DNA from: Deltaproteobacteria bacterium
GTDB lineage: Bacteria > Desulfobacterota_B > Binatia > UBA9968
DNA length: 58,555 nt
Reading direction: 5' to 3'
NCBI GenBank assembly: GCA_005879255.1
Contig: VBKY01000185.1
Coordinates: forward strand, 1 to 58,555
Shown here: in pieces, positions 8,799-26,255 of the stretch
Layout: each line of letters starts with the position of its first letter
Position numbering within the stretch: the first letter of the stretch is position 1
The notes under the pieces: generated by a model
The model's database searches: none
What the model saw: the letters and a program-made list of their open reading frames with translations, nothing else
What the model was told of the DNA's origin: nothing
Program-made: the position numbers and the translations under genes

Positions 8799-11438
8799 TT
8801 AGGCGTTGAGCTCTGACAGCGATACTGCAGAATCGAAGAAGCGGACGGCTTGCGTTGCCTCGAGCGCGGGCGCGAAAAGAAAGCCCTGGCCAAATTGACA
8901 CCCGAGTTCTTTGAGTACGTTTAACTGTTGGATGACTTCTATCCCCTCCGCGACAACCTGGAGATCGAGGATTTGCGCCAGTGCCAAGATCGTACGAATG
9001 ATTTCATAGGGACGCCGTTTGCCGTGTTCCATCGGGAAAGTGGCGCCCAATCGCCGGACAAACGAGCGGTCGATTTTTAGGACGTCGATGGGAAATCTAT
9101 GAAGATAGTTGAGCGAAGAAAACCCCTTTCCGAAGTCATCCAGGCAGAGCTTAATCCTCCGTTTCCGCAATTGGGATAAGGTATGAGCTACGCCCCGAGT
9201 GCTTTCGACGAGTGCGCTCTCGGTGATTTCAAGCCGGAGATGTTGAGGTTCCAGCCCGGTTTCATGAAGCACTTCGTCGAGTTCATCAATCAGTCCGCCA
9301 CGAGATACCTGCTTGCTCGAGACGTTGACGCTGATGTAACAGTTTTCATCCATCGGAAAATGCTCTTGCCAATTGCGCATCTGGCGGCAAGCCTCTCGGA
9401 ACACCCAGCTGCTCAGCGGGCCGACAAGGCCGGTTTCTTCGGCAAGGGGTATGAACTCAGCCGGCGAAACCGCGCCTCGTCCATTGTGCTGCCAGCGCGC
9501 CAGGGCTTCGAATCCTGCCAGCTTGCCGCTTTCCAACGACACGATCGGCTGGTAATGAAGGTGGATTTGTTTTCGTTCGATGGCGCGTTTCATATCCATT
9601 TCCAAACGCATTCGTTCCAGTGCGCGAGCGTGCATTTTGGCGTCAAACATCTGATAGCCCGACCGGCGAGTCTTGGCCTGATACATGGCCATGTCCGCGT
9701 CTCGCAGTAAGTCCTCGGGCATCTTCTCGCCGGTGAGACTTAGCGCGATACCGATGCTGGCGCCGATCGAGACTTCGTTATCATCCAATATCAGCGGGTC
9801 CGCCAATCGCTCCAAGGTCCGCTCGGCCACGCGAACTGCGTCCTCAGGACCGCGAATCTGTTCGAGCAGGATCGCGAATTCATCGCCCCCCAAGCGCGCT
9901 ACCGTGTCCTCCTCGCGCGTGCATTCGACGAGCCGATGAGCCATCTCGATCAATAATTTATCGCCCACCATGTGGCCGAGGGTGTCGTTGATCACTTTGA
10001 AGCGATCCAAATCCAAGAAAAGCAGCGCGAAGGGGTGATGTCCATGGCGCTTCGCTGAGGCATTGAGCCGTAGCAGGTTGTCGAGGAACAACGTGCGATT
10101 GGGTAGGCCGGTCAAGCCGTCGTGAAACGCGGTACGTTTGAGCTCCGATTCGACTCGCTTACGCTCGGTGACGTCGACAACAGCGACCAAAACTCCTCTC
10201 CCCTTAGGGGTGTGAATCGGATTCAAGCCGATCTCCAGTGGAAATTCGGTACCATCTTTGCGCAGGCCATACAATTCTCGGCCGCGCCCGATCCATCTTT
10301 CATTCGAACTCATGAACAGGCTCTGTCCAGGATGTTCGCTACGAAAACGTTCGGGCAGCAATATTTCAACCGGCCGGCCCATCAATTCGTCGCGATTGTA
10401 GCCAAATAGTTGCTCAATGTGGGCATTCACGAGCGTGACGTTTCCATCTTGATCCACAATCAGCATGCCGTTCGGCGCTGATTCCACCGCAACGCGAAAT
10501 TGCTCTTGAGCCCAGGTACGCTCGCTGATCTCAGACTTCAAGGCATCGCTCAAGCGAGCAACCTCGGCGCTTTCCTCGCGCACACGGGCTTCCAATTCAT
10601 CGTGCGCGCGCTGCAGCGTTTCGCGTATTTGCACGTCCACCGTGATATCCCGCAGAAAGCCGGTATACAAAATCTGACCTTTAGTGCGAAGTTCGCTGAA
10701 CGTGATCTGCACGGGCAAGATTTTATTGTTGCGGCACTTGGCGACGGCGGTATGAGCCTGCCGGGCGGAGATCGGCAACGGGTGCCCACTGGGGCCGGTC
10801 ACAAGCTCATCGAGGTTTTTACCGACGATCTCGGAGGATGTATAAGCCAGCAATTCTTCAACCGCCGGATTGACCGTGTCTATCCGGCCGGTTTTATCGA
10901 TGGTCAAAATTCCGATCGGTAAGCTGGCCAGAAGAGACTGATAACGAATCTGATTTTCCAAGAGCAAGATGGCGCGCTGATAGACAACATCGTCATTTTT
11001 CTTCTTATCGGTGATATCACGGACCAACATCCAGATGCCCTGTGCTTTTCCTCGCTCGTCGGTTTGCAGCCATTTTTTGACGGCCACAGGAAAGACTGTC
11101 CGATCGCTTTTGCGGAGCTCAATTTCGTATTCATCGGTCACGCCTTTGTCGATGACCTCGGCGCGCGTTGATTCTTCCTTCTCGTGCCATTTATTCGGCA
11201 TGAGACTCAAAGTCTTACAGGCTCTGAAATCGTCTTGGTTGGCTAACAACATCCTGGCAAGAGCCGGGTTGCAATCGACAATCCTTCCGGTCAGATCCGT
11301 TTCGACGATACTAAACGCCACCGAGTTAAAAAGGGACTGATAATGTGATTGCTTCGCCAGATCCTGATTGGAGTCCTGATCGCGCGAAGCGATAAAGCGG
11401 TTGTTAATCAGCTTAGGCCCGCGTTTCATTTTCTTCAT
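8799..11438 (-). CDS. PAS-PAS-PAS-GGDEF-EAL cyclic-di-GMP regulator
   Basis: An 879-residue cytoplasmic signalling protein without membrane segments. Three PAS domains lie at about 30-150, 165-285 and 315-435, with a coiled coil (about 285-315) before the third. The GGDEF domain has an intact GGDEF site at 517-521 and the EAL domain has EALARW at 644. An intact GGDEF site would allow c-di-GMP synthesis and the EAL domain its hydrolysis to pGpG; which wins cannot be told from sequence. The PAS array should sense a small molecule, redox state or oxygen. The gene is convergent with hyuB2 and stands alone. The ATG at 11438 is followed in frame by another at 11429. Confidence 0.93.
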   Translation of the reverse strand: MKKMKRGPKLINNRFIASRDQDSNQDLAKQSHYQSLFNSVAFSIVETDLTGRIVDCNPALARMLLANQDDFRACKTLSLMPNKWHEKEESTRAEVIDKGVTDEYEIELRKSDRTVFPVAVKKWLQTDERGKAQGIWMLVRDITDKKKNDDVVYQRAILLLENQIRYQSLLASLPIGILTIDKTGRIDTVNPAVEELLAYTSSEIVGKNLDELVTGPSGHPLPISARQAHTAVAKCRNNKILPVQITFSELRTKGQILYTGFLRDITVDVQIRETLQRAHDELEARVREESAEVARLSDALKSEISERTWAQEQFRVAVESAPNGMLIVDQDGNVTLVNAHIEQLFGYNRDELMGRPVEILLPERFRSEHPGQSLFMSSNERWIGRGRELYGLRKDGTEFPLEIGLNPIHTPKGRGVLVAVVDVTERKRVESELKRTAFHDGLTGLPNRTLFLDNLLRLNASAKRHGHHPFALLFLDLDRFKVINDTLGHMVGDKLLIEMAHRLVECTREEDTVARLGGDEFAILLEQIRGPEDAVRVAERTLERLADPLILDDNEVSIGASIGIALSLTGEKMPEDLLRDADMAMYQAKTRRSGYQMFDAKMHARALERMRLEMDMKRAIERKQIHLHYQPIVSLESGKLAGFEALARWQHNGRGAVSPAEFIPLAEETGLVGPLSSWVFREACRQMRNWQEHFPMDENCYISVNVSSKQVSRGGLIDELDEVLHETGLEPQHLRLEITESALVESTRGVAHTLSQLRKRRIKLCLDDFGKGFSSLNYLHRFPIDVLKIDRSFVRRLGATFPMEHGKRRPYEIIRTILALAQILDLQVVAEGIEVIQQLNVLKELGCQFGQGFLFAPALEATQAVRFFDSAVSLSELNA

Positions 11439-16398: not shown

Positions 16399-17662
16399 AT
16401 GGATATCAAATCTCTCATCGATCCCGAAGGCGGCCTTATCGATCGGCGTATCTTCGCCGATCATGAGATTTACGAGCTGGAGCGCGAGCGTGTCTTTGCG
16501 CGCTGCTGGCTTTATCTGGGCCACGAATGCGAGATCCCAAATCCCGGCGATTTCGTCACCCGATACATGGGCGAAGAGCCCGTGATCTTGTGCCGTGACT
16601 CAAACGGCCAGCTGCGGGCGCACTTGAATCTTTGCCGGCATCGCGGCAATCGCGTCTGCCGTGCCGATCGCGGCAACACTAAACTGTTTACCTGTTCGTA
16701 TCACGGTTGGACTTATGCCAACGACGGCAAGCTCGCGCTGGTGCCGATGATCGACTCGGAAGTGGGGCCTGATCCCGGTCGCGCAGATTGACAGCTACAA
16801 GGGATTGATCTTTGCGACCTTCGATCCGGAGGCGCCCACGCTGAAAGACTATCTGGGCGACATGGCTTGGTATCTCGATATTCTCTTTGATCGACGTGAA
16901 GGCGGCACCGAAGTCAGCGGGCCGCACCGTTGGTTGTTGGACGCCAACTGGAAAACCTCGGCGGAAAACTTTGGTGGTGACGGCTATCATATCGCGGCGA
17001 CGCATGGCTCGGCGCGCGAAGTCGGCGTCGACACGACCACGAGTCAAACACGACAATGGAGCAAGGGATGTCAAATCGACTGCGGCAATGGACACATTTT
17101 AAATTTGTGGATCACGCCGCCGGAGGGCGGCCTATGGTTCGGTCAGCCTGACGATGAGATCGCTAACTACATGAAAGAAAACGCGGCTGAGATCGAGAAT
17201 CGGCTGGGCACAATGCGGGCCCAGCAAATCGCGCCCTCGGCAGGGACGGTCTTTCCCAATCTCTCGGTGCACTGGCTCACGCGCACGGTTCGATTGTGGC
17301 AACCGCGTGGCCCGGACAAAATGGAGATCTGGAGCTGGGCGGTTGTCGACAAGGCGGCGTCGGCAAAAATCAAGGACACGATGCGGTTTGTCTCCCAATA
17401 CCGTTTCAGTCCCACCGGTGTTTTCGAGCAAGATGATATGGACAACTGGATACAAGTTACCGCCGCGGCGAAAAGTTTGATCGGCCAGCGTTATCCCGCT
17501 AACTACCAGATGCGCGGCGATAATTCGCCGATCGAAATCGACTTGCCCGGACGGGTAAAGAGCCGTTTTAGCGACAACAATCAGCTAAGCCTTTACATGC
17601 ATTGGGCCAAGATGCTCCAAGCGAAGAACTGGGACGAAATCATGAGTGCGGAAAATGGATAA
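16399..17662 (+). pseudogene. Rieske ring-hydroxylating dioxygenase alpha subunit, frameshifted
   Basis: The first frame (16399-16791) carries the Rieske [2Fe-2S] ligands, CRHRGN and CSYHGW. The frame then shifts: from TGG at 16763 the +1 frame reads GLIPVAQIDSYKG and continues to the TAA at 17660. That part has the mononuclear iron site, GDGYHIAATH, and a late DNW that may hold the third ligand. One extra G in or next to the GGGG run at 16764-16767 explains the shift. Related proteins, as I recall them, also have around ten more residues at this point, so a small deletion is likely too. AAGGAG precedes the ATG. If the shift is real, no active oxygenase is made unless translation slips. Confidence 0.85.
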
Positions 17663-18164: not shown

Positions 18165-18518
18165 GCGAATGAGGTGGCAGTGAAGTTTAGAACGCGAACT
18201 AACTTTGATTACGCCGCCGCAACCATCGTTCACGCTGCTCTAATTTATTTCTAGTTTTCTGGCGGGCGCCCATTAACAGCAAAAGTCTGCATGGCACTCG
18301 CTTTGCTGGGTGTCCATCCCAATGAAATCTGCCGCCTTGTACAACAAAACTCCGGCCTTTTTTTCGTCCACGCCCGGGATTCCATCGCGGCGCGATGTCA
18401 ATTCGAGGATCGCGTAGTTTCTCCGCTCGGTGTATCGTGGCGAAGGGAGGGCGCAAAACCGCCGGACAATATTGCTCGCCGACATTTCGATCTTGGACCA
18501 AATGGGGAGGAGGCATTT
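18165..18518. other. Leader region of the patatin/SLOG pair
   Basis: 354 bases between the dioxygenase beta gene and the patatin gene. A frame is open from 18291 but lacks homology, and the strong ribosome binding site is only at 18505-18513, so I treat the stretch as non-coding and probably containing the promoter of the patatin operon. No clear repeat or RNA fold was found. Confidence 0.4.
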
Positions 18519-19688
18519 ATGCCATACAAAATCCGCACCCGCGATGAACATTTTCTGAATGATGGGAGTCCCAAGCGTATTCTAGCTCTGGATGGCGGCG
18601 GTCTAAGGGGAATTCTGACGCTATCGTACCTCGCCGAGATCGAATCGACTCTGAGCGGACGCCACGGAGGAGCGGAAAACTTTCGTCTCAGCCACTATTT
18701 CGATTTGATTGCCGGCACCTCGACGGGCTCGATCATCGCCGCGGCGTTGGCGCGTGGCATGTCGGTGAGTGAGATCGCAAAGAAATATCTCGACCTCGGC
18801 CAGCGCGTGTTCCAGAAAAGCTGGTTACGCCAGGGTTTCGTCCGGGCGTTTTACGACGAAGCCGGCTTGATCGAAGAGCTGAAGCAGGTATACGGTGCCC
18901 AGACAACGCTGAGCGATCCATCGTTGCAAACCGGGCTTCTAATCGTCACAAAGCGACTCGACACGGAGAGCGTGTGGCCGATATCGAACAATCCGCGCGG
19001 AAAATATTACGGTCCGCGACCGGACAGCAATGTCATTCCTAACTCAGCCTATCCGCTCTGGCAGGTCGTTCGATCGTCGACGGCGGCACCTCGTTTTTTT
19101 GATCCAGAAAAGATCGAAATCAGCCGTGGCAAGTCTGGCGAGAAACCGGTCCAGGGGGAATTTGTCGACGGCGGTGTGAGCCCGTTCAACAACCCAGCAT
19201 TGCAGGCCGTCATGCATGCGACGTTGGATGGCTATCGCATCGGCTGGCCCACCGGCTCGGACAAGTTGCTCGTCGTGTCGGTCGGTACGGGGTCGCGTGA
19301 TCTAAAAGTCGCGCCGGCCAAGTTGGCGGTCGACAACGCACTCAAATCGCTTCTGTCGGTAATGGATGACTGCGCTACTCTGATGGAAACGCTGCTGCAA
19401 TGGTTGTCGAGTAGCCCGACAGCGCGCATGATCAACCGCGAGGTGGATGATTTGCGCCATGACCTGATCGCCCCGGTGCCACTGATCAGTTACCTGCGCT
19501 ACAATGTCGCGCTAAGCAAGGATTCCTTGGCGCAGATCGGCATGGAGTTCGACGACGAAAAGATCGAGGGCTTGAGTGCGATGGACGATCCCGGCAACAT
19601 GAAGACGCTGCAAGAGATTGGCACCAAGGCGGCAAAGCAGCAGGTGCGCGCCGAAGACTTTCCATCAAACTTCGATCTTGTGGGATGA
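18519..19688 (+). CDS. Patatin-like phospholipase
   Basis: A 389-residue patatin-fold lipid acyl hydrolase. The oxyanion loop GGGLRG is at residues 26-31, the nucleophile elbow GTSTG places Ser at about 68, and the DGG motif places the catalytic Asp at about 217, so the Ser-Asp dyad is complete. No signal peptide or membrane segment is present; it should be cytosolic, attacking membrane lipids from inside. GGGGAGGAGG just before the ATG at 18519 decides the start against an upstream open frame. The next gene, 68 bases on, encodes a TIR/deoxyribosyltransferase-like plus SLOG protein. Patatins are established effectors in nucleotide-signalled antiphage systems (CapV of CBASS), so an effector role here is a reasonable inference. 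Confidence 0.9.
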   Translation: MPYKIRTRDEHFLNDGSPKRILALDGGGLRGILTLSYLAEIESTLSGRHGGAENFRLSHYFDLIAGTSTGSIIAAALARGMSVSEIAKKYLDLGQRVFQKSWLRQGFVRAFYDEAGLIEELKQVYGAQTTLSDPSLQTGLLIVTKRLDTESVWPISNNPRGKYYGPRPDSNVIPNSAYPLWQVVRSSTAAPRFFDPEKIEISRGKSGEKPVQGEFVDGGVSPFNNPALQAVMHATLDGYRIGWPTGSDKLLVVSVGTGSRDLKVAPAKLAVDNALKSLLSVMDDCATLMETLLQWLSSSPTARMINREVDDLRHDLIAPVPLISYLRYNVALSKDSLAQIGMEFDDEKIEGLSAMDDPGNMKTLQEIGTKAAKQQVRAEDFPSNFDLVG

Positions 19689-19756
19689 GGCTTGAAACAA
19701 AAAAACTTGAAACAGGGTAACGTCGCGGAATTCTAAATCGACGTGAAGGCAAGCCC

Positions 19757-21760
19757 ATGATGAATGTATTTATTGTGCGTCCGTTCGGCACCAAGAATGG
19801 AATCGATTTCGACCGAGTTGAAAAAGAACTCATTCGTCCGGCCATGGGGCAAGCGGGTTTGACGGGCGGCACGACCGGCGAATTTATCCAGCAAGGCAAC
19901 ATTCGCACCGACATGTTCGAGCAATTGCTGATCGCCGATCTCGTCATCGCAGATATTTCGATCCACAACGCCAACGTTTTTTATGAGCTGGGAATTCGCC
20001 ACGCATTCCGGGACAAACGCACTTTCCTGCTCAAGTCGAAGGGAGATAAATCCAAAGAAAATGAGTCCAAAGAAAGCGACGTCCCATTCGATTTAAAAAC
20101 GGACCGATATCTGTCCTATGATGGCAACGATCCGGCAGCCAGCGTGGCGTCCTTTGCCGATGCGCTAAATGCGACATTAGATTCGCAAAAAGCCGATAGT
20201 CCGGTTTACCAGCTGCTACCGGAGTTGGAGCCTTCGGATCCAAACAAGCTCTTGGTCGTGCCGCTCGATTTTCGCGAGGAAATTGAACGGGCAGAGGCCG
20301 CTAATAATTGCGGCGATCTACAACTTTTGGCGGCGGAGATGGACGGCTTCGTCTGGCGGGTGGCTGGCCTTCGCCTCGTCGGCCATGCCCAATTTCGCTT
20401 GAAAGACTGGCCGGGCGCAAAGATAACGTGGCAGGCGGTGCGGGACTATGGCGACATGGATGTCGAAGCGAACACGCTGCTTGCGACGATCTTTCAACGG
20501 TTGGGCGATCTCTTGAGCTCCGATCAAGCCGTTGAGCGCGCCCTTCATAACAAAGAAATCTTCGCGAGAGACCGGGCAGAAGTCCGCGCCTTGATGGCGC
20601 GCAACGCGAAAACTCAATGGCATCAGAGCTGGGCGACGGCCGCGGACGTCGAGACTGCGCAGAAGTCCGCCTTGGTTTCGCCCTATCTCGAAAAGTCATT
20701 CGAGCTTTACCGTGAAGGTTTCATTGAAGACCGCAATCATTTCTACTCAGGCCTCAACGCTTTAGCGATGGTGACTATGCTGACTGAGCTGGCGCAAGCT
20801 CAATCGACGATCTGGGAGGATAGCTTCGATTCAAAGGAAGACGCCGCCCAGAAACTTCAGAAGCTGAAAGAGCTGCGCGGTGACCTCGCCGCTGGAGTAA
20901 GGTTAGCGATCGAGTCGAAGCAGGTTGCATTGCAGCGCACCAATAGAAGCGACATTTGGGTCGAGATCAGCACCGCCGATCTGATTTGTTTGACCTCCAG
21001 TAGACCCAATCGGGTGGGACAGGCGTACAGGAAGGCTCTCGCCGATGCTTCGGAGCAGGCGCGCGACGCCTTGCGACGACAACTGTTGCTCTATCAACGG
21101 CTCGGAATTCTAAAAGAGAATATTCAAGCCGGTCTCGACAACATTGCGCCGGTTACTCAACAGACCCAAACCCAACAAGCGCCAACCCACGTGCTTTTGT
21201 TCACTGGACATCGCATCGATGCTCCCGATCGCAAAACTCCTCGTTTTCCGGCCGCCAAAGAGAAGCACGCGCGCGCGATGATTTTCGAGGCCGTAAGGAA
21301 TGAAAAAGCGAAAGCGAAAGGGCCAGTATTCGGCATTGCCGGAGGCGCTTGCGGCGGCGATATTCTTTTCCATGAAATTTGCGAGGCGCTCGAAATCCCG
21401 AGCCAAATGTATCTGGTCTTGCCGAAAAACGATTATATCAAGGTCTCGGTGGCGGATGGCGGGCCGGATTGGGTCGAGCGCTTCAATCGGCTCTACGATA
21501 AAATGAAGCCGAAAATTCTTTCCTACTCCGACCGACTGCCGCGCTGGCTCAGGACAAAAAAGGACTACAACATCTGGCAACGCTCAAATCTCTGGATGCT
21601 CCACAACGCCCTTTTCATCTCGCAGGACCACCTAAGTCTCATTGCATTATGGAACGGCGCCACCGGCGACGGCCCCGGAGGCACCGAAGACATGGTGGAG
21701 CGGGCCAAAGATCGCGGTGCGACGTTCATTCATCTGGACGCCCGCAAGCTTGTTGAGTGA
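19757..21760 (+). CDS. TIR/deoxyribosyltransferase-like, TPR, SLOG three-part protein
   Basis: A 667-residue cytosolic protein with three parts. Residues 1 to about 150 look like a TIR or nucleoside deoxyribosyltransferase-like Rossmann domain: it opens VFIVRPFGTKNG and has ADLVIADISIHNANVFYELG, where the Glu fits the catalytic acid of that family. About 150-470 is all-helical and TPR-like (DUF4071/MAP3K TRAF-binding type). About 475-667 is a SLOG/LOG-DprA-like nucleotide-binding domain with FTGHR near 482 and GIAGGACGGD near 526-535. SLOG domains in Thoeris sense NAD-derived signals. Adjacent to the patatin gene, this suggests a sensor or signal maker with a lipid-cleaving effector. I recognise the parts but know no experimental study of this exact protein. 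Confidence 0.72.
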   Translation: MMNVFIVRPFGTKNGIDFDRVEKELIRPAMGQAGLTGGTTGEFIQQGNIRTDMFEQLLIADLVIADISIHNANVFYELGIRHAFRDKRTFLLKSKGDKSKENESKESDVPFDLKTDRYLSYDGNDPAASVASFADALNATLDSQKADSPVYQLLPELEPSDPNKLLVVPLDFREEIERAEAANNCGDLQLLAAEMDGFVWRVAGLRLVGHAQFRLKDWPGAKITWQAVRDYGDMDVEANTLLATIFQRLGDLLSSDQAVERALHNKEIFARDRAEVRALMARNAKTQWHQSWATAADVETAQKSALVSPYLEKSFELYREGFIEDRNHFYSGLNALAMVTMLTELAQAQSTIWEDSFDSKEDAAQKLQKLKELRGDLAAGVRLAIESKQVALQRTNRSDIWVEISTADLICLTSSRPNRVGQAYRKALADASEQARDALRRQLLLYQRLGILKENIQAGLDNIAPVTQQTQTQQAPTHVLLFTGHRIDAPDRKTPRFPAAKEKHARAMIFEAVRNEKAKAKGPVFGIAGGACGGDILFHEICEALEIPSQMYLVLPKNDYIKVSVADGGPDWVERFNRLYDKMKPKILSYSDRLPRWLRTKKDYNIWQRSNLWMLHNALFISQDHLSLIALWNGATGDGPGGTEDMVERAKDRGATFIHLDARKLVE

Positions 21761-21825: not shown

Positions 21826-23109
21826 TTATTCTCTTTCATTGGACTGCAGTGCATCGAGGGCCTTCTGCACCAGCTTTCGCCGCAGTTCCTTTTCATCGGC
21901 CGGCGGTAACTTGGCGTCGCCCGTCACGTGCACGATTCCGGTTCCTAAAACCACGCGGTTGGCTCCCACCATCTTGGCGATGGGCAGGGCGGAGGTAATC
22001 TGCACCACTGGGATGCCCGCTTTCTCTAGTTCTGTTGTGATCGCAGCGCCGCTGCGCGTGCTCGTTCCTCACGTCGAGGTGAGGATGACGGCGTCGACGC
22101 CGTCCCGTTTGATCTTTGCCGCCATCTCCCGGCCGAGACGGCGTGTGTTTGACAGCGGGTTGGAGCGGCCGCAGGTGGAAATGAATTCGTCATGAAGTTT
22201 GCCGATGACGCCGTTTTTTTCCATCTCGCGCAGGGCATCGAGGGGCACTAACCGGTCAGGATCTTCCTGGACGAACCGCGTGTCGTAGCCGCCGTGGGAA
22301 ACTTCGTAGTCTTCAGCGCGCAAATCATCGCGTCCCTCGATGCTGTAAGACCCCCAACGCGTCGCTGCTGTTCCTTCGATTCGATCTGGATTGCCTTTAG
22401 GGACAAGTCCGCCGTCGGTGATCAGCATCAGTTTGGCTCTCGATAAGTTTTTGACGCCCGCAGGCATCGGAATCGGCGCGAAAGCGGTCGGCGGCATCTC
22501 GGATTCGAATGGTTCTCCGTTCATCTTCGCCAAGAGCATGTCGACGAGCCGCGTCGCGGCTTTTTTCTCCACGAGCTGGTCGCGCAACCATCCGCGCCGC
22601 AAGTATCCTTCTTCGTGCGGCAGGCCGATCGGTTCCTTGGTGACAAGTTTCCGGCTGAGCCTTGCCATCTTGTCCAGGACATTGCGCATGTTGGCGATGC
22701 TCGTCCCCGAGTCGATGATATAGAGCGCGTCGCGGTTAAGATCGACACCGGGATTCTCTTCGCTCATCGCGGTCACGACAGAAATGCTAAGCTCGGCTTG
22801 AACGGCGCGGCAGAGCGCGCCGGCCGCCATGCCGTAGCGCCCTGCATCAAAGCATGGCCCGGCGACGAAGAGGTCCACGTTTGCGTGACGGACCTTTTCC
22901 ACGACGGAAGCCGTAACCTCGTCTTGATGTTCGACGGCGTAATTGTCACCGCAAACCAACGTCAGGACGATGCGGGCGTCGTTTCCCAGCAACGATTCCA
23001 ACAACCGGCCGGGTCCGACCGCGCCGTCACGGACTTCCAGTTCCTTGCCAGCGTGCTCTTCGGCGCCGATGCCGCCAAAGAACTGATTCAGATAATGGGC
23101 GATTCGCAT
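21826..23109 (-). CDS. grdB: GrdB-like reductase component, predicted selenoprotein
   Basis: A 427-residue homologue of selenoprotein B of glycine/sarcosine/betaine reductase (GrdB/GrdF/GrdH). It opens with the family start IAHYLNQFFGGIGAEE and has VCGDNY and GPCFDAGRYG. After AVILTST an in-frame TGA (22069-22071) interrupts the frame; the frame then continues GTSTRSGAA, IPVVQIT and KMVGANRVV to a stop at 21826. The TGA is where family members have selenocysteine, so Sec347 is predicted. The two Cys that usually follow (UGTCTRC) are Ser here. CGGAGGAG before the ATG at 23109 sets the start. In known systems GrdB binds the amine substrate and passes its carbon to GrdA; no grdA or grdC is in the window. 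Confidence 0.87.
22042..22056 (-). promoter_or_regulatory. Possible SECIS hairpin
   Basis: Twelve bases after the UGA the mRNA reads CGCAGC GGC GCTGCG, a six-base-pair stem with a three-base loop. Bacterial SECIS elements lie just 3' of the Sec codon and have a short stem with a loop containing G. The position and size fit, but SECIS sequence is poorly conserved, so this is only a candidate. Confidence 0.45.
22069..22071 (-). other. In-frame UGA, predicted selenocysteine codon 347
   Basis: The codon before is ACG (Thr) and the one after GGA (Gly), giving STUGTS, the selenocysteine context of the GrdB family. Homology continues without a break on both sides, which speaks against a plain stop or a frameshift. 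Confidence 0.85.
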
Positions 23110-23148
23110 AGCGAACTCCTCCGGATAGGCGCGAGGCGACAGGCGTGA

Positions 23149-23197: not shown

Positions 23198-24478
23198 TCA
23201 GTAGACCATTGCCCTCATTCTGGACGCACCTTGTTGATTAGTTACGCCGACGATGTTGGAAGCGTCGATCGTCATCGGACCGGCGAGCAATTCGGTGAAT
23301 TCAGGCGTGGCTGCGATGATTCGATCGACCCGTGGCACTTCCCACTGCTTACCGTTGCCGCCGTTGTAGACGATGGCGTCGACTTCCGGAACGTTGAAAA
23401 GCAACGCCGACTCGACGCGGCGGTCTCTCGACACGTCGGAAACCATAACCGAAGTTTTTATTCCCATGCCTTCGAGCAGGCGTGCGGTCTCCGCCAGGTC
23501 GGCATGGGGCAATCCGCCACCGTACTTGGATAACACCGCGCCGTCCGCGTTCAAGTTCCACTTGACGAGATTGGCGGCGGCGCGACAATGGCGCTCGCGG
23601 TCGAAATTATCCGAGCCGGCGATCGTGGCTACTGTGCCGACGAAATTAATTTCACGCGCCTGGTGGCGCTGATAGAGTTCCAGGATAATGGGATGATTTT
23701 GATAAAAATAAGTTTCCGTGCCGCCAAACCACGAATGCAGCGATGGCACGACAGCGCCGTCGAGCCACTCGTCGGGGTGCAGCATAACCGGTAGCATGCC
23801 GTCAGTGTTAGCGCCATAGAGAATCGGCTCGTCCACCGCTGGTTTGCGCTGCCGTGAAAAAATCTGCCCAACATAAGCGACTCGCGCCCGTCCGTCGCGC
23901 CCTTTCTCCCCTGGACCCACCGGCTCAAAGGTCTGGAGGTTAGTGGGGAGATGATTCCAGGCACTGCGGGCAACCTCGACGGCGACTCGTATGCCGGCAA
24001 GGCGGTAAGCTTTTTCCAATGTTTGGCGCGGCAATCCTGGTTTGGTGTGCGGGATCACGATCAAGTGTTGCAGCGAAGAGTACTCGCTCGCCTCAACCGG
24101 AGCGCCGCTCATTTCCAAAACGCGCCCAGTTGCGCTTCGAGTCGGGTCCGGTGAAATCTCGGCCAGAACCGACACCGCAGCGCCGGTCAGGACATGAGTC
24201 GTGCCGATGCCGGCGGTAATCGGTGCGCCCAGTATGCCGGGAAAATCGGCGCCGCAACCGGGTGCTTTCGCTCTCGGTTCAATCACGTCAAAGATTGGAC
24301 CGGCACGGCAGCGCTCTCCGGGCCGCGCGATATCGAAGTCGACGCTGACGATGGATTCGTCTTCAAGAACCAGCCGGCGTAGTTCGGCACGATCGATCAG
24401 GAGAATTGAACCTTCCAAGCGCGCTGGTGTGTCGAAGCGTAAGTCGGTGACGGGATGACGCGCCAAAGTTAGTTGCAT
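23198..24478 (-). CDS. grdE: GrdE-like component B subunit of glycine/betaine-type reductase
   Basis: A 426-residue homologue of GrdE/GrdG/GrdI, the component B subunit that in characterised clostridia is cleaved to form a pyruvoyl group which makes a Schiff base with the amine. Typical parts are ERCRAGPIFDVIEPRAK, GIGTTHVLTG and, later, NADGAVLSKYGGGLPHADL. The region before YFYQNHPI, where I expect the cleavage Cys (GNC in clostridial GrdE), reads SLHSWFGG and has no Cys; this is from memory of the family. GGTGAGGAC before ATG 24478 fixes the start. It is followed by grdB on the same strand after 88 bases, an E-B operon. Confidence 0.85.
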   Translation of the reverse strand: MQLTLARHPVTDLRFDTPARLEGSILLIDRAELRRLVLEDESIVSVDFDIARPGERCRAGPIFDVIEPRAKAPGCGADFPGILGAPITAGIGTTHVLTGAAVSVLAEISPDPTRSATGRVLEMSGAPVEASEYSSLQHLIVIPHTKPGLPRQTLEKAYRLAGIRVAVEVARSAWNHLPTNLQTFEPVGPGEKGRDGRARVAYVGQIFSRQRKPAVDEPILYGANTDGMLPVMLHPDEWLDGAVVPSLHSWFGGTETYFYQNHPIILELYQRHQAREINFVGTVATIAGSDNFDRERHCRAAANLVKWNLNADGAVLSKYGGGLPHADLAETARLLEGMGIKTSVMVSDVSRDRRVESALLFNVPEVDAIVYNGGNGKQWEVPRVDRIIAATPEFTELLAGPMTIDASNIVGVTNQQGASRMRAMVY

Positions 24479-24570
24479 GGTCTTTGTCCTCACCTGAAGC
24501 GCTACAGAAAAGTGAACCGAATCGTTGACCCAAATCTTATTCCCGGACGGAGAATCTTGTCAACGTAAGT

Positions 24571-24758: not shown

Positions 24759-26255
24759 ATGCTTCGCTTTTCGCCAAATCCCAATCTCGCCCATCTTGTC
24801 CACTGGTTCGAATGGGAAAGAGACGCTTTTCGCCGGGCGCAAGAGCAGGACAAGCCCGTGATGCTTTTCCTATCGGCGTTCTGGTGTCGCTACTGCCAGC
24901 GCATGGACGAGGGAGCTTTCTCGGATCGGGAAAACATGGCGTTGCTCAACGCCTACTTCGTCGCGCTACGTGTCGAGAACGCCATGCGGCCCGACATTGA
25001 TGCACGCTATAATCTCAACGGCTGGCCGACCGTCGCCTTCTTCACGCCCTCGGGAGAGCTGCTCGCGGCAGTCAATTATCTCGGTGCCGATGAGTTCAAG
25101 GAGCTGCTGCTGAATGTTTACATGGATTATCAAGAAAAGAAGACTGAAACCCGCGTGGCGAAAGCGCCGGATGACAGTGAAGCCGTCGTGGCGCGTCAGG
25201 CAGCGCGCGAACCAGCCGGTGTTTCGGCTCTGACGGAGATTACAAATGGGATCATGGCGCTCGCCGATCGGTTCCACGGCGGCTACGGGCAGGGACAAAA
25301 ATTCATCCATGCGGAAGCGAACGATTTTCTGTTACGCCGCTACGAGGCGACAAAAGACGCTGCTTATCTCGATCATGTTCGCTTGACGCTCGACCGGATG
25401 CGAGAGAGCCCGATCTATGATGACAAAGACGGCGGCTACTTTCGCACCACCTCGGGCGCAGACTGGGTACAACCGCACCGCGAAAAGCTCTTGGGTGAGC
25501 AGGCCGGTCTCTTGTCCAATTGCCTCCATGCGCTCCGTTTCACCCAGCGTCGCGAGTATGCGCGCATGGCCGAGGAAATCATCGACTACCTCGATCGCAA
25601 ACTCTTCGATCCGTCCAGCGGCGCCTTTTTCGGCTGCGAGGATTTTCTTCGGCGTGAAACAAGCGCGGATACTTCCGCCGACGAGTTTTTCACCATCATC
25701 GATCAGTGCGTTTACACCGACGCCAACGCGCAGGCGATCAGCGCCTATTTGGACGCCGCGGCGATCTTGGGGCGAGCCGACTGCAAAAAGCGGGCGCTGA
25801 GTGTTGTTGAGTTTCTTTGGAGCCATAGCCGCAGCGCGGCGGAAGGCATGTACCATTATTATGATGGCACGCCCCACGTGTCAGGACTGCTGAACGATCA
25901 AGCATGGATGGGCGCGGCGCTCGTAGAGACCCACCATGCGAGTGGCGAGGCCGTGTATCTAGAGCGAGCGCGGGAATTGGTGGAGTTTATTCTCGCACGC
26001 TTGAGAAATTCCGAGGGCGGTTACTTCGATCTAGGCACGGGCGAGCTGGGCTTTCTCAAATTCCGTCTCACCGCGATCGAGCAAAACGGCGCCGCTGCAT
26101 TTTTTTTCCTGAAGCTGGCGCAAGCAGGGCGAGAACCAAAGTATTTTGAGGCTGCTGGTTGGGCTTTGCGCGCGTTTAGTGGAGATTTCGCTTCTTGCGG
26201 CATTCATGCCGCCCCGTTCGGGCGGGCCCTTGGTGAATGGCTGAACCGTCGGTAA
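24759..26255 (+). CDS. DUF255 thioredoxin-fold / (alpha/alpha)6-barrel protein
   Basis: A 498-residue protein of the YyaL/SPATA20-like family. The N-terminal thioredoxin fold (about 1-130) has the redox motif FWCRYCQRM with Cys43 and Cys46 and the cis-Pro WPTVAFF; the rest (about 140-498) is a helical barrel of the N-acylglucosamine 2-epimerase type with MYHYYDG and LLNDQAW. Common family members are near 650-700 residues, so this is a short form. AAGAGG lies before the ATG. It is divergent from grdE; glycine reductase of clostridia depends on thioredoxin, so a functional link is conceivable but only inferred. The cellular role of the family is uncertain. Confidence 0.85.
   Translation: MLRFSPNPNLAHLVHWFEWERDAFRRAQEQDKPVMLFLSAFWCRYCQRMDEGAFSDRENMALLNAYFVALRVENAMRPDIDARYNLNGWPTVAFFTPSGELLAAVNYLGADEFKELLLNVYMDYQEKKTETRVAKAPDDSEAVVARQAAREPAGVSALTEITNGIMALADRFHGGYGQGQKFIHAEANDFLLRRYEATKDAAYLDHVRLTLDRMRESPIYDDKDGGYFRTTSGADWVQPHREKLLGEQAGLLSNCLHALRFTQRREYARMAEEIIDYLDRKLFDPSSGAFFGCEDFLRRETSADTSADEFFTIIDQCVYTDANAQAISAYLDAAAILGRADCKKRALSVVEFLWSHSRSAAEGMYHYYDGTPHVSGLLNDQAWMGAALVETHHASGEAVYLERARELVEFILARLRNSEGGYFDLGTGELGFLKFRLTAIEQNGAAAFFFLKLAQAGREPKYFEAAGWALRAFSGDFASCGIHAAPFGRALGEWLNRR

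Follow-up and report, generated by a model that had tools for sequence, protein, structure and literature searches.

The window, i.e., the whole 58,555-nt stretch of DNA analyzed here, carries a grdB-like gene on its minus strand (21826–23109) whose frame is interrupted by an in-frame UGA. The gene runs from an ATG (23109–23107), preceded by a GGAGGA ribosome-binding-like site (23117–23122, minus strand), to a stop codon at 21828–21826, and the UGA (22071–22069, minus strand) is codon 347 of 427. Read through, it would yield a 427-aa selenoprotein subunit of a Grd-type protein B with Sec347. An earlier sequence-only reading had correctly placed the interrupting TGA at 22069–22071, leaving the strand unstated, and had taken STUGTS as the GrdB selenocysteine context. 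STUGT is indeed common to both, but the canonical UGTCTRCGA is here UGTSTRSGA, i.e., the motif reads UGTSTRS in place of UxxCxxC. We refer to genes with this signature (UGTSTRSG) as type I.

Profile searches placed the read-through product in the GrdB family, at scores under the cut-offs of its named members. It passed the cut-off of the subfamily profile TIGR01918 (482.2 vs 65.45 bits) and matched Pfam GRDB with 442 bits, this match stopping at residue 346, the final model position, just before the UGA. It fell below the NCBIfam equivalog cut-off for GrdB (TIGR01917; 444.4 vs 602.2 bits), the cut-off for GrdF (491 vs 800 bits) and the exception-level cut-off for GrdH (434.4 vs 775 bits), while 4/4 clostridial copies scanned passed the GrdB or GrdF cut-off. 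A type I paralogue scored much like the window GrdB. An AlphaFold model of GrdB (pLDDT 87.6, pTM 0.64) gave no meaningful structural match in the PDB (one at E ≤ 0.001, TM 0.21–0.27), and neither GrdB nor GrdE had a PDB sequence match.

Directly upstream of grdB, on the same strand, lies a grdE-like gene (23198–24493, minus strand; 431 aa from a GTG, with an ATG at 24478; PF09338, 237 bits), the predicted partner subunit of protein B. It had been overlooked in the sequence-only reading. The product scored 190.6 bits against NF040793, far below the cut-off, and 138.2 bits against NCBIfam FarE (cut-off 675). Clostridial GrdE proteins carry a GNC motif at residue 242/243, and Cys242 of Clostridium sticklandii GrdE is the residue from which the pyruvoyl group arises. 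No Cys occupies this column in the window GrdE or in 23 type I relatives; in the type I GrdE of locus L089, a Cys sits one column off. The earlier remark on the absence of grdA and grdC is correct as far as the window goes, where tblastn found no grdA, grdC or grdD (best match E = 0.037), but relatives carry both grdA and grdC elsewhere in the genome. With grdE adjacent and grdA and grdC in relatives, an orphan GrdB was ruled out.

To place the UGA in context, we compared the locus with its relatives, a genome scan yielding 22 loci. Besides the window, 26 distinct type I relatives carry TGA within STUGTSTRSGA; they were counted by sequence, with the repeats L067, L084, L086, L091, L092, L093 and L097 counted once. 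Although this recount used the TGA-containing motif as query, an unbiased listing agrees, with one TGA in 17/18 matches and none in 1. The codon was UGA in all 26 readable type I relatives and never UAA or UAG, so that a sequencing error or frameshift at this position was ruled out. In a 27th copy the codon is deleted: L011 (identical to L100; a single MAG, G011) lacks ~22 nt including the selenocysteine codon from its type I grdB (9384–10642), which is either a broken gene or an assembly chimera. Identity to the window shifts from 80% to 96% at the deletion site, which resembles a chimera of assembly or strain origin. This MAG carries selA, selB and a partial selD, without a tRNA-Sec over the cut-off, GrdA or GrdC.

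Beyond the UGA, pN/pS over 74 codons was 0.08–0.21 in 15/15 comparisons between the window and relatives, which from these sequence comparisons indicates purifying selection on the tail; the window tail can also be aligned with those of clostridial GrdB and GrdF. The sequence-only reading had pointed to 80 in-frame codons past the TGA. The stretch is indeed open, but since such an opening has p ~0.065 by composition alone, openness is weak evidence and conservation decides. A conserved in-frame UGA and coding constraint past it, two marks of a selenoprotein, were thus both found.

We also searched for a type I orthologue with Cys at the selenocysteine column, using the C-terminal region as query, and found no clear case in 8 matches among 355 candidates. 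P0123, a type I fragment in the database with 87% identity across residues 335–427, has W at this column, for which we could not tell a TGG from a TGA translated by code 4. Other C-terminal matches have W (P0125, P0126, P0128 and P0130) or G (P0124), which we take, without proof, to come from gene calling with translation codes 4 and 25. P0127 and P0129 do have C at the column, but both lie outside type I.

Downstream of the UGA, comparative analysis revealed the SECIS-like hairpin that the sequence-only reading had proposed to look for (22041–22057, minus strand). It lies 18 nt after the UGA and consists of a 7-bp stem, with positions +15 to +21 paired with +25 to +31, and a 3-nt GGC loop; the window has an unpaired G-A at the bottom of the stem, leaving 6 pairs. 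Synonymous variation is almost absent from codons +4 to +11, whose mean entropy is 0.34 vs 1.17 for 93 other conserved codons (0/20000 matched draws as low). Covariation was assessed on 22 distinct sequences of several GrdB types, hand-picked from a larger set: 95.5% of cells were paired in the stem, 17 cells showed a double change and the covariation score was 0.338, and each of these three values was reached by 0/500 shuffles, figures that are not probabilities as the 22 sequences are related. Two of five covariation measures did not exceed shuffles, namely pairs with a double change (466/500) and pair types (320/500). Control stems slid along the alignment showed far less pairing than the hairpin position, and at the codon level, Ser AGC is accompanied by Ala GCU, whereas Cys UGC occurs together with GCA or GCG. 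Single-sequence folding energies (z-scores) near the UGA were no better than shuffles, and the free-energy fold of the window favors a shifted stem over the conserved hairpin by 0.9 kcal/mol. Folding energy gave no support; that for the hairpin comes through comparison only, and at this level the hairpin behind the UGA covaries across paralogues. No Rfam family reached its gathering score in the window, and ARAGORN found no tRNA genes there.

Next, we evaluated whether relatives could decode such a codon, in 14 non-clostridial genomes behind the loci and 14 control genomes. tRNA-Sec was over the cut-off in 12/14 relatives (best scores 68–79 bits, cut-off 47) and selB in 13/14. Since searches for both at E ≤ 0.001 give matches in all 14 controls (over the cut-off in 5 and 2, respectively), only cut-off counts were used. 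For selA and selD, a second set of 15 genomes was searched, and each of the two was over the cut-off in 14/15, vs 1/14 and 2/14 controls, and every selD copy over the cut-off has one TGA inside. Five genomes (G001, G002, G003, G008 and G011) belong to one family: the first three have selA, selB and selD over the cut-off, and the first four a tRNA-Sec over the cut-off at 74–79 bits. G008 has no selA, selB or selD over the cut-off, gaps that a single missing contig could account for because the three genes are adjacent to each other in G001, G003, G005, G011 and G013. The window's own sel, grdA and grdC genes are thus predicted from relatives' genomes, in which selA, selB, selC and selD, whose absence the sequence-only reading had named as counter-evidence, are all present.

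Taken together, the UGA in the window grdB is very probably read as selenocysteine, judging from the conserved column (26 distinct type I copies, as the sequence-only reading had proposed to check), selection past the UGA, the covarying hairpin and the sel genes of same-family genomes, and the proposed GrdB-family selenoprotein stands. If the UGA were instead a true stop, the 346-residue product, which takes in nearly all of Pfam GRDB, would be functional and the tail a relic. The Pfam match ending at residue 346, gene calls of 345–367 aa in 120/120 of the best listed homologues and the modest p ~0.065 of the open codons could be read that way, but purifying selection in all 15 comparisons, alignment of the tail with clostridial GrdB and GrdF, a codon that in 26 type I relatives is never UAA or UAG, the conserved covarying hairpin and the sel genes of relatives make this highly improbable.

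The type I copies form one side of a tree branch with 100/100 support (25 rows), and throughout this clade both Cys of UxxCxxC are Ser. Their hosts are MAGs labelled Binatia, Deltaproteobacteria and SAR202. SAR202- and Dehalococcoidia-labelled copies nest among Binatia copies (97/95), a topology which suggests transfer. The copy closest to the window GrdB is that of G318 (84%), and in the nearest family, that of G001, G002, G003, G008 and G011, type I was found in 14/25 genomes. Across the phylum, 12/297 genomes had GrdB at E ≤ 1e-100, with type I in G005 only (71%) and the other GrdB matches at 42–48%; type I is therefore rare in this 297-genome sample. Canonical GrdE with GNC are present in the same phylum, hence it is the type I clade, together with its paralogues, that has lost the Cys, and not the phylum as a whole. 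Including fragments, 13/14 non-clostridial genomes hold 2 to 10 GrdB-family matches. A large expansion is seen in the Dehalococcoidia- and SAR202-labelled G010 and G012 (loci L032/L033; 10 and 7 matches, fragments included), some copies of which flank grdC-grdA.

Other Grd components follow a distinct pattern in these genomes. GrdA with one TGA was detected in 12/14 relatives' genomes and GrdC over the cut-off in 11/14, with partial, below-cut-off matches in 2 more; grdA lies beside grdC in 12/12 genomes, the grdC match of G003 being cut by a contig end. An invariant Cys of GrdC is kept in 12/12 aligned sequences (10 of them non-clostridial). GrdD, which in the known system bears the acetyl thioester, was over the cut-off in 0/14 relatives vs 2/2 clostridial genomes. 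Weak GrdD matches (18–23 bits) occur in 5/14 relatives, with below-cut-off matches in 7/14 controls, and type I genomes may hold a very divergent GrdD. The single-contig chromosomes G005 and G013 gave no GrdD match at all, so that an assembly gap would hardly account for the absence there.

The haem-copper oxidase gene COX1 was found in 13/14 relatives and 0/2 Clostridia, the only relative without it being the 2.2-Mb G009. COX1 indicates a capacity for oxygen respiration and is no proof that the enzyme works in air. The contrast that the sequence-only reading had drawn with anaerobic Grd hosts is borne out to this extent, but it is not unique, given Shewanella sp. MTB7 and aerobic Sec users (see below).

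Divergent from grdE lies a gene for a thioredoxin-fold protein (Thioredox_DsbH/DUF255; 24759–26255, plus strand) with a CxxC in the motif FWCRYCQRM, a candidate reductant partner. It adjoins type I grdEB in 10/13 other loci (absent in L002, L008 and L012), between grdB and grdE in L010 and L013, and its CxxC is kept in 11/11 copies, window included. None of 11 further loci showed it, 8 of them with flanks long enough for a verdict, and 7 of those 8 fall in one sub-clade of the tree; the thioredoxin-fold neighbor is thus confined to some of the type I loci. In a search for a substrate hint, grdE was the one gene found next to all type I copies.

The window and G011 share gene order over ~18 kb (12.3–30.0 kb), except for two window genes (18.3–21.8 kb). 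These form a defence-like pair (18291–21760, plus strand), a patatin-like phospholipase resembling a CBASS effector (PADLOC PDLC00758, 151 bits) and, after it, a TPR-S sensor. In the window the pair separates grdB from the dioxygenase genes, and it looks inserted because these genes lie directly beyond grdB in L011 and L101. A similar pair occurs near grdA in G001 (L023, 4090–7186, minus strand), with a phospholipase (PDLC00758, 156 bits) and a 654-aa protein that, like the second gene of the window pair, has a weak TIR-profile match. Separately, a ring-hydroxylating dioxygenase alpha subunit (16399–17662, plus strand) is spread over two frames in the window, one holding the Rieske part and the other the catalytic part. 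It is one open frame in L008, and the split in the window would be a frameshift or sequence error.

As the sequence-only reading had expected, standard annotation truncates this protein: among the best 120 of 6637 database homologues, all are 345–367 aa long, covering 81%. These 120 entries (P0003–P0122) end near the UGA, some under the name betaine reductase, likely a systematic annotation gap. Because the listed homologues are 345–367-residue fragments, some named glycine or betaine reductase, their selenocysteine and function are hidden. Most descriptions of glycine-reductase-type enzymes present them as Stickland enzymes of anaerobic, ATP-forming metabolism. The type I enzyme, a Sec-dependent relative, lacks the pyruvoyl site, the protective cysteines and GrdD, and it recurs in genomes with haem-copper oxidase. 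With type I, one can test which Grd parts cannot be dispensed with and how Sec stays active in such cells.

Our preferred explanation, which we hold to be probable as a whole, is a substrate-specific protein B that acts on a non-amine or quaternary substrate with GrdA and GrdC and without GrdD. Its core, i.e., protein B of a GrdA/GrdC-linked system lacking the pyruvoyl group and GrdD, is likely on sequence grounds, and for the quaternary or non-amine nature of the substrate we would give about even chances. In such a system, grdB and grdE would supply the two subunits, B and E, of a Grd-type protein B with Sec347 as the predicted catalytic nucleophile, inserted at the UGA by SelB with the hairpin at 22041–22057, as the comparison suggests. 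By analogy with the known system, Sec would attack the activated substrate carbon, releasing the leaving group, and the Se-bound acyl precursor would be handed to GrdA (CxxU), encoded elsewhere, as suggested by the GrdA of relatives. No Schiff base with an amine would form in the known way, the pyruvoyl-forming Cys being absent, and it is from this that a quaternary or non-amine substrate seems probable, the reasoning being that applied to betaine GrdI and fluoroacetate FarE. Where present, the neighboring CxxC thioredoxin-fold protein may protect or reduce the enzyme, replacing the lost Cys of UxxCxxC. Because relatives have GrdC and no GrdD, the product is probably not acetyl phosphate made in the clostridial way; we speculate that release proceeds via the conserved Cys of GrdC, e.g., as acyl-CoA. 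A protein B without CxxC might be impaired rather than specialized, but purifying selection argues against this.

Two other readings keep the enzyme closer to characterized systems. The first, that a genuine glycine, sarcosine or betaine reductase was taken for something else, draws on the top NCBIfam scores (GrdF 491 bits, TIGR01918 482 bits), on the JGI names of some matches (betaine or glycine reductase) and on GrdI of betaine reductase, which according to PMC10838667, as far as its accessible part goes, likewise has no pyruvoyl Cys. However, scores far under the GrdB, GrdF and GrdH cut-offs (444/602, 491/800 and 434/775 bits) argue against it, all four clostridial copies scanned passing the first or second of these. 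Without a pyruvoyl Cys, glycine and sarcosine are unlikely substrates. Betaine is still a candidate; in the accessible part of a sponge study, grdH is said to have gone undetected in the genomes at hand (PMC9999580). We consider such a reductase unlikely, and on sequence evidence the grdEB pair is not a canonical glycine reductase. Somewhat less likely still is a FarEB-like reductive dehalogenase of small haloacids. Both reported Cys losses are common to FarEB (PMC10838667, in part), and NCBIfam FarE does align to the window GrdE, but at a score far below its cut-off (138 vs 675 bits), the window ORFs scanned (16.4 to 47.0 kb) contained neither an MFS antiporter nor a radical-SAM domain, and the shared losses may be convergent.

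Extending the preferred explanation, i.e., a GrdA/GrdC-linked protein B for a quaternary or non-amine substrate, beyond this locus is more tentative. Conceivably, though we would sooner doubt than assert it, oxygen-respiring Binatia and SAR202 of soil, sponge and ocean may have expanded a selenium-dependent Grd system without pyruvoyl or GrdD that cleaves carbon-heteroatom bonds of non-amines, with acyl release by GrdC alone (e.g., as acyl-CoA) serving assimilation rather than fermentative ATP formation. Literature searches found no paper on the type I clade, wider searches being judged by title and abstract of the best matches. In what was accessible of each source, GrdB is described as UxxC or in general terms (PMC13188914, PMC1088965, PMC2398784 and PMC10418091); sponge-symbiont bins mostly have SelA and SelB, in a text from which "glycine reductase" is absent (PMC5649159); and for Binatota, "selenocysteine" appears only in the reference list (PMC9999580). 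A GTDB survey used a GrdB motif containing TxGNxTxV (PMC9751293, partial text); as the window protein has STCGRSNPL at this place, such a survey would presumably pass over it.

Compared with clostridial GrdBE and GrdFG, the window shares the adjacent grdE and grdB, Sec in STUGT and the hairpin position, and type I relatives' genomes share with clostridial protein B systems homologues of GrdA (CxxU) and GrdC. In contrast, UxxCxxC is replaced by UxxSxxS, type I GrdE lacks the equivalent of Cys242, and type I genomes have COX1 and no GrdD over the cut-off. Betaine reductase GrdHI also does without a pyruvoyl group, GrdI not being a proprotein (PMC10838667, accessible part), but the GrdH profile gives the window GrdB only 434 bits (cut-off 775). 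FarEB of Cloacibacillus porcorum MFA1 resembles the window pair in having Sec, no CxxC after Sec and no pyruvoyl cysteines: in the same partially accessible report (PMC10838667), FarB lacks CxxC and FarE, like GrdI of betaine reductase, lacks both pyruvoyl cysteines, so that the Cys losses of type I have precedent. FarEB is also predicted there to depend on GrdA, as the window pair is here, and growth on fluoroacetate reportedly upregulates grdA. Unlike the window pair, FarEB belongs to a far operon with antiporter and radical-SAM genes, its host is an anaerobe with a full glycine reductase system, unlike type I hosts (both PMC10838667), and the FarE profile scores the window GrdE at 138 bits (cut-off 675). 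Finally, according to the accessible part of PMC10059138, Shewanella sp. MTB7 combines Grd genes and cytochrome oxidases in one bacterium, as type I relatives do, and one count puts the aerobic share of Sec-using bacteria at 40.4% (PMC5029168, in part), which makes Sec or Grd beside oxygen respiration less surprising; unlike type I genomes, this Shewanella is a facultative anaerobe with a complete grd operon including grdD, trxA and trxB (PMC10059138).
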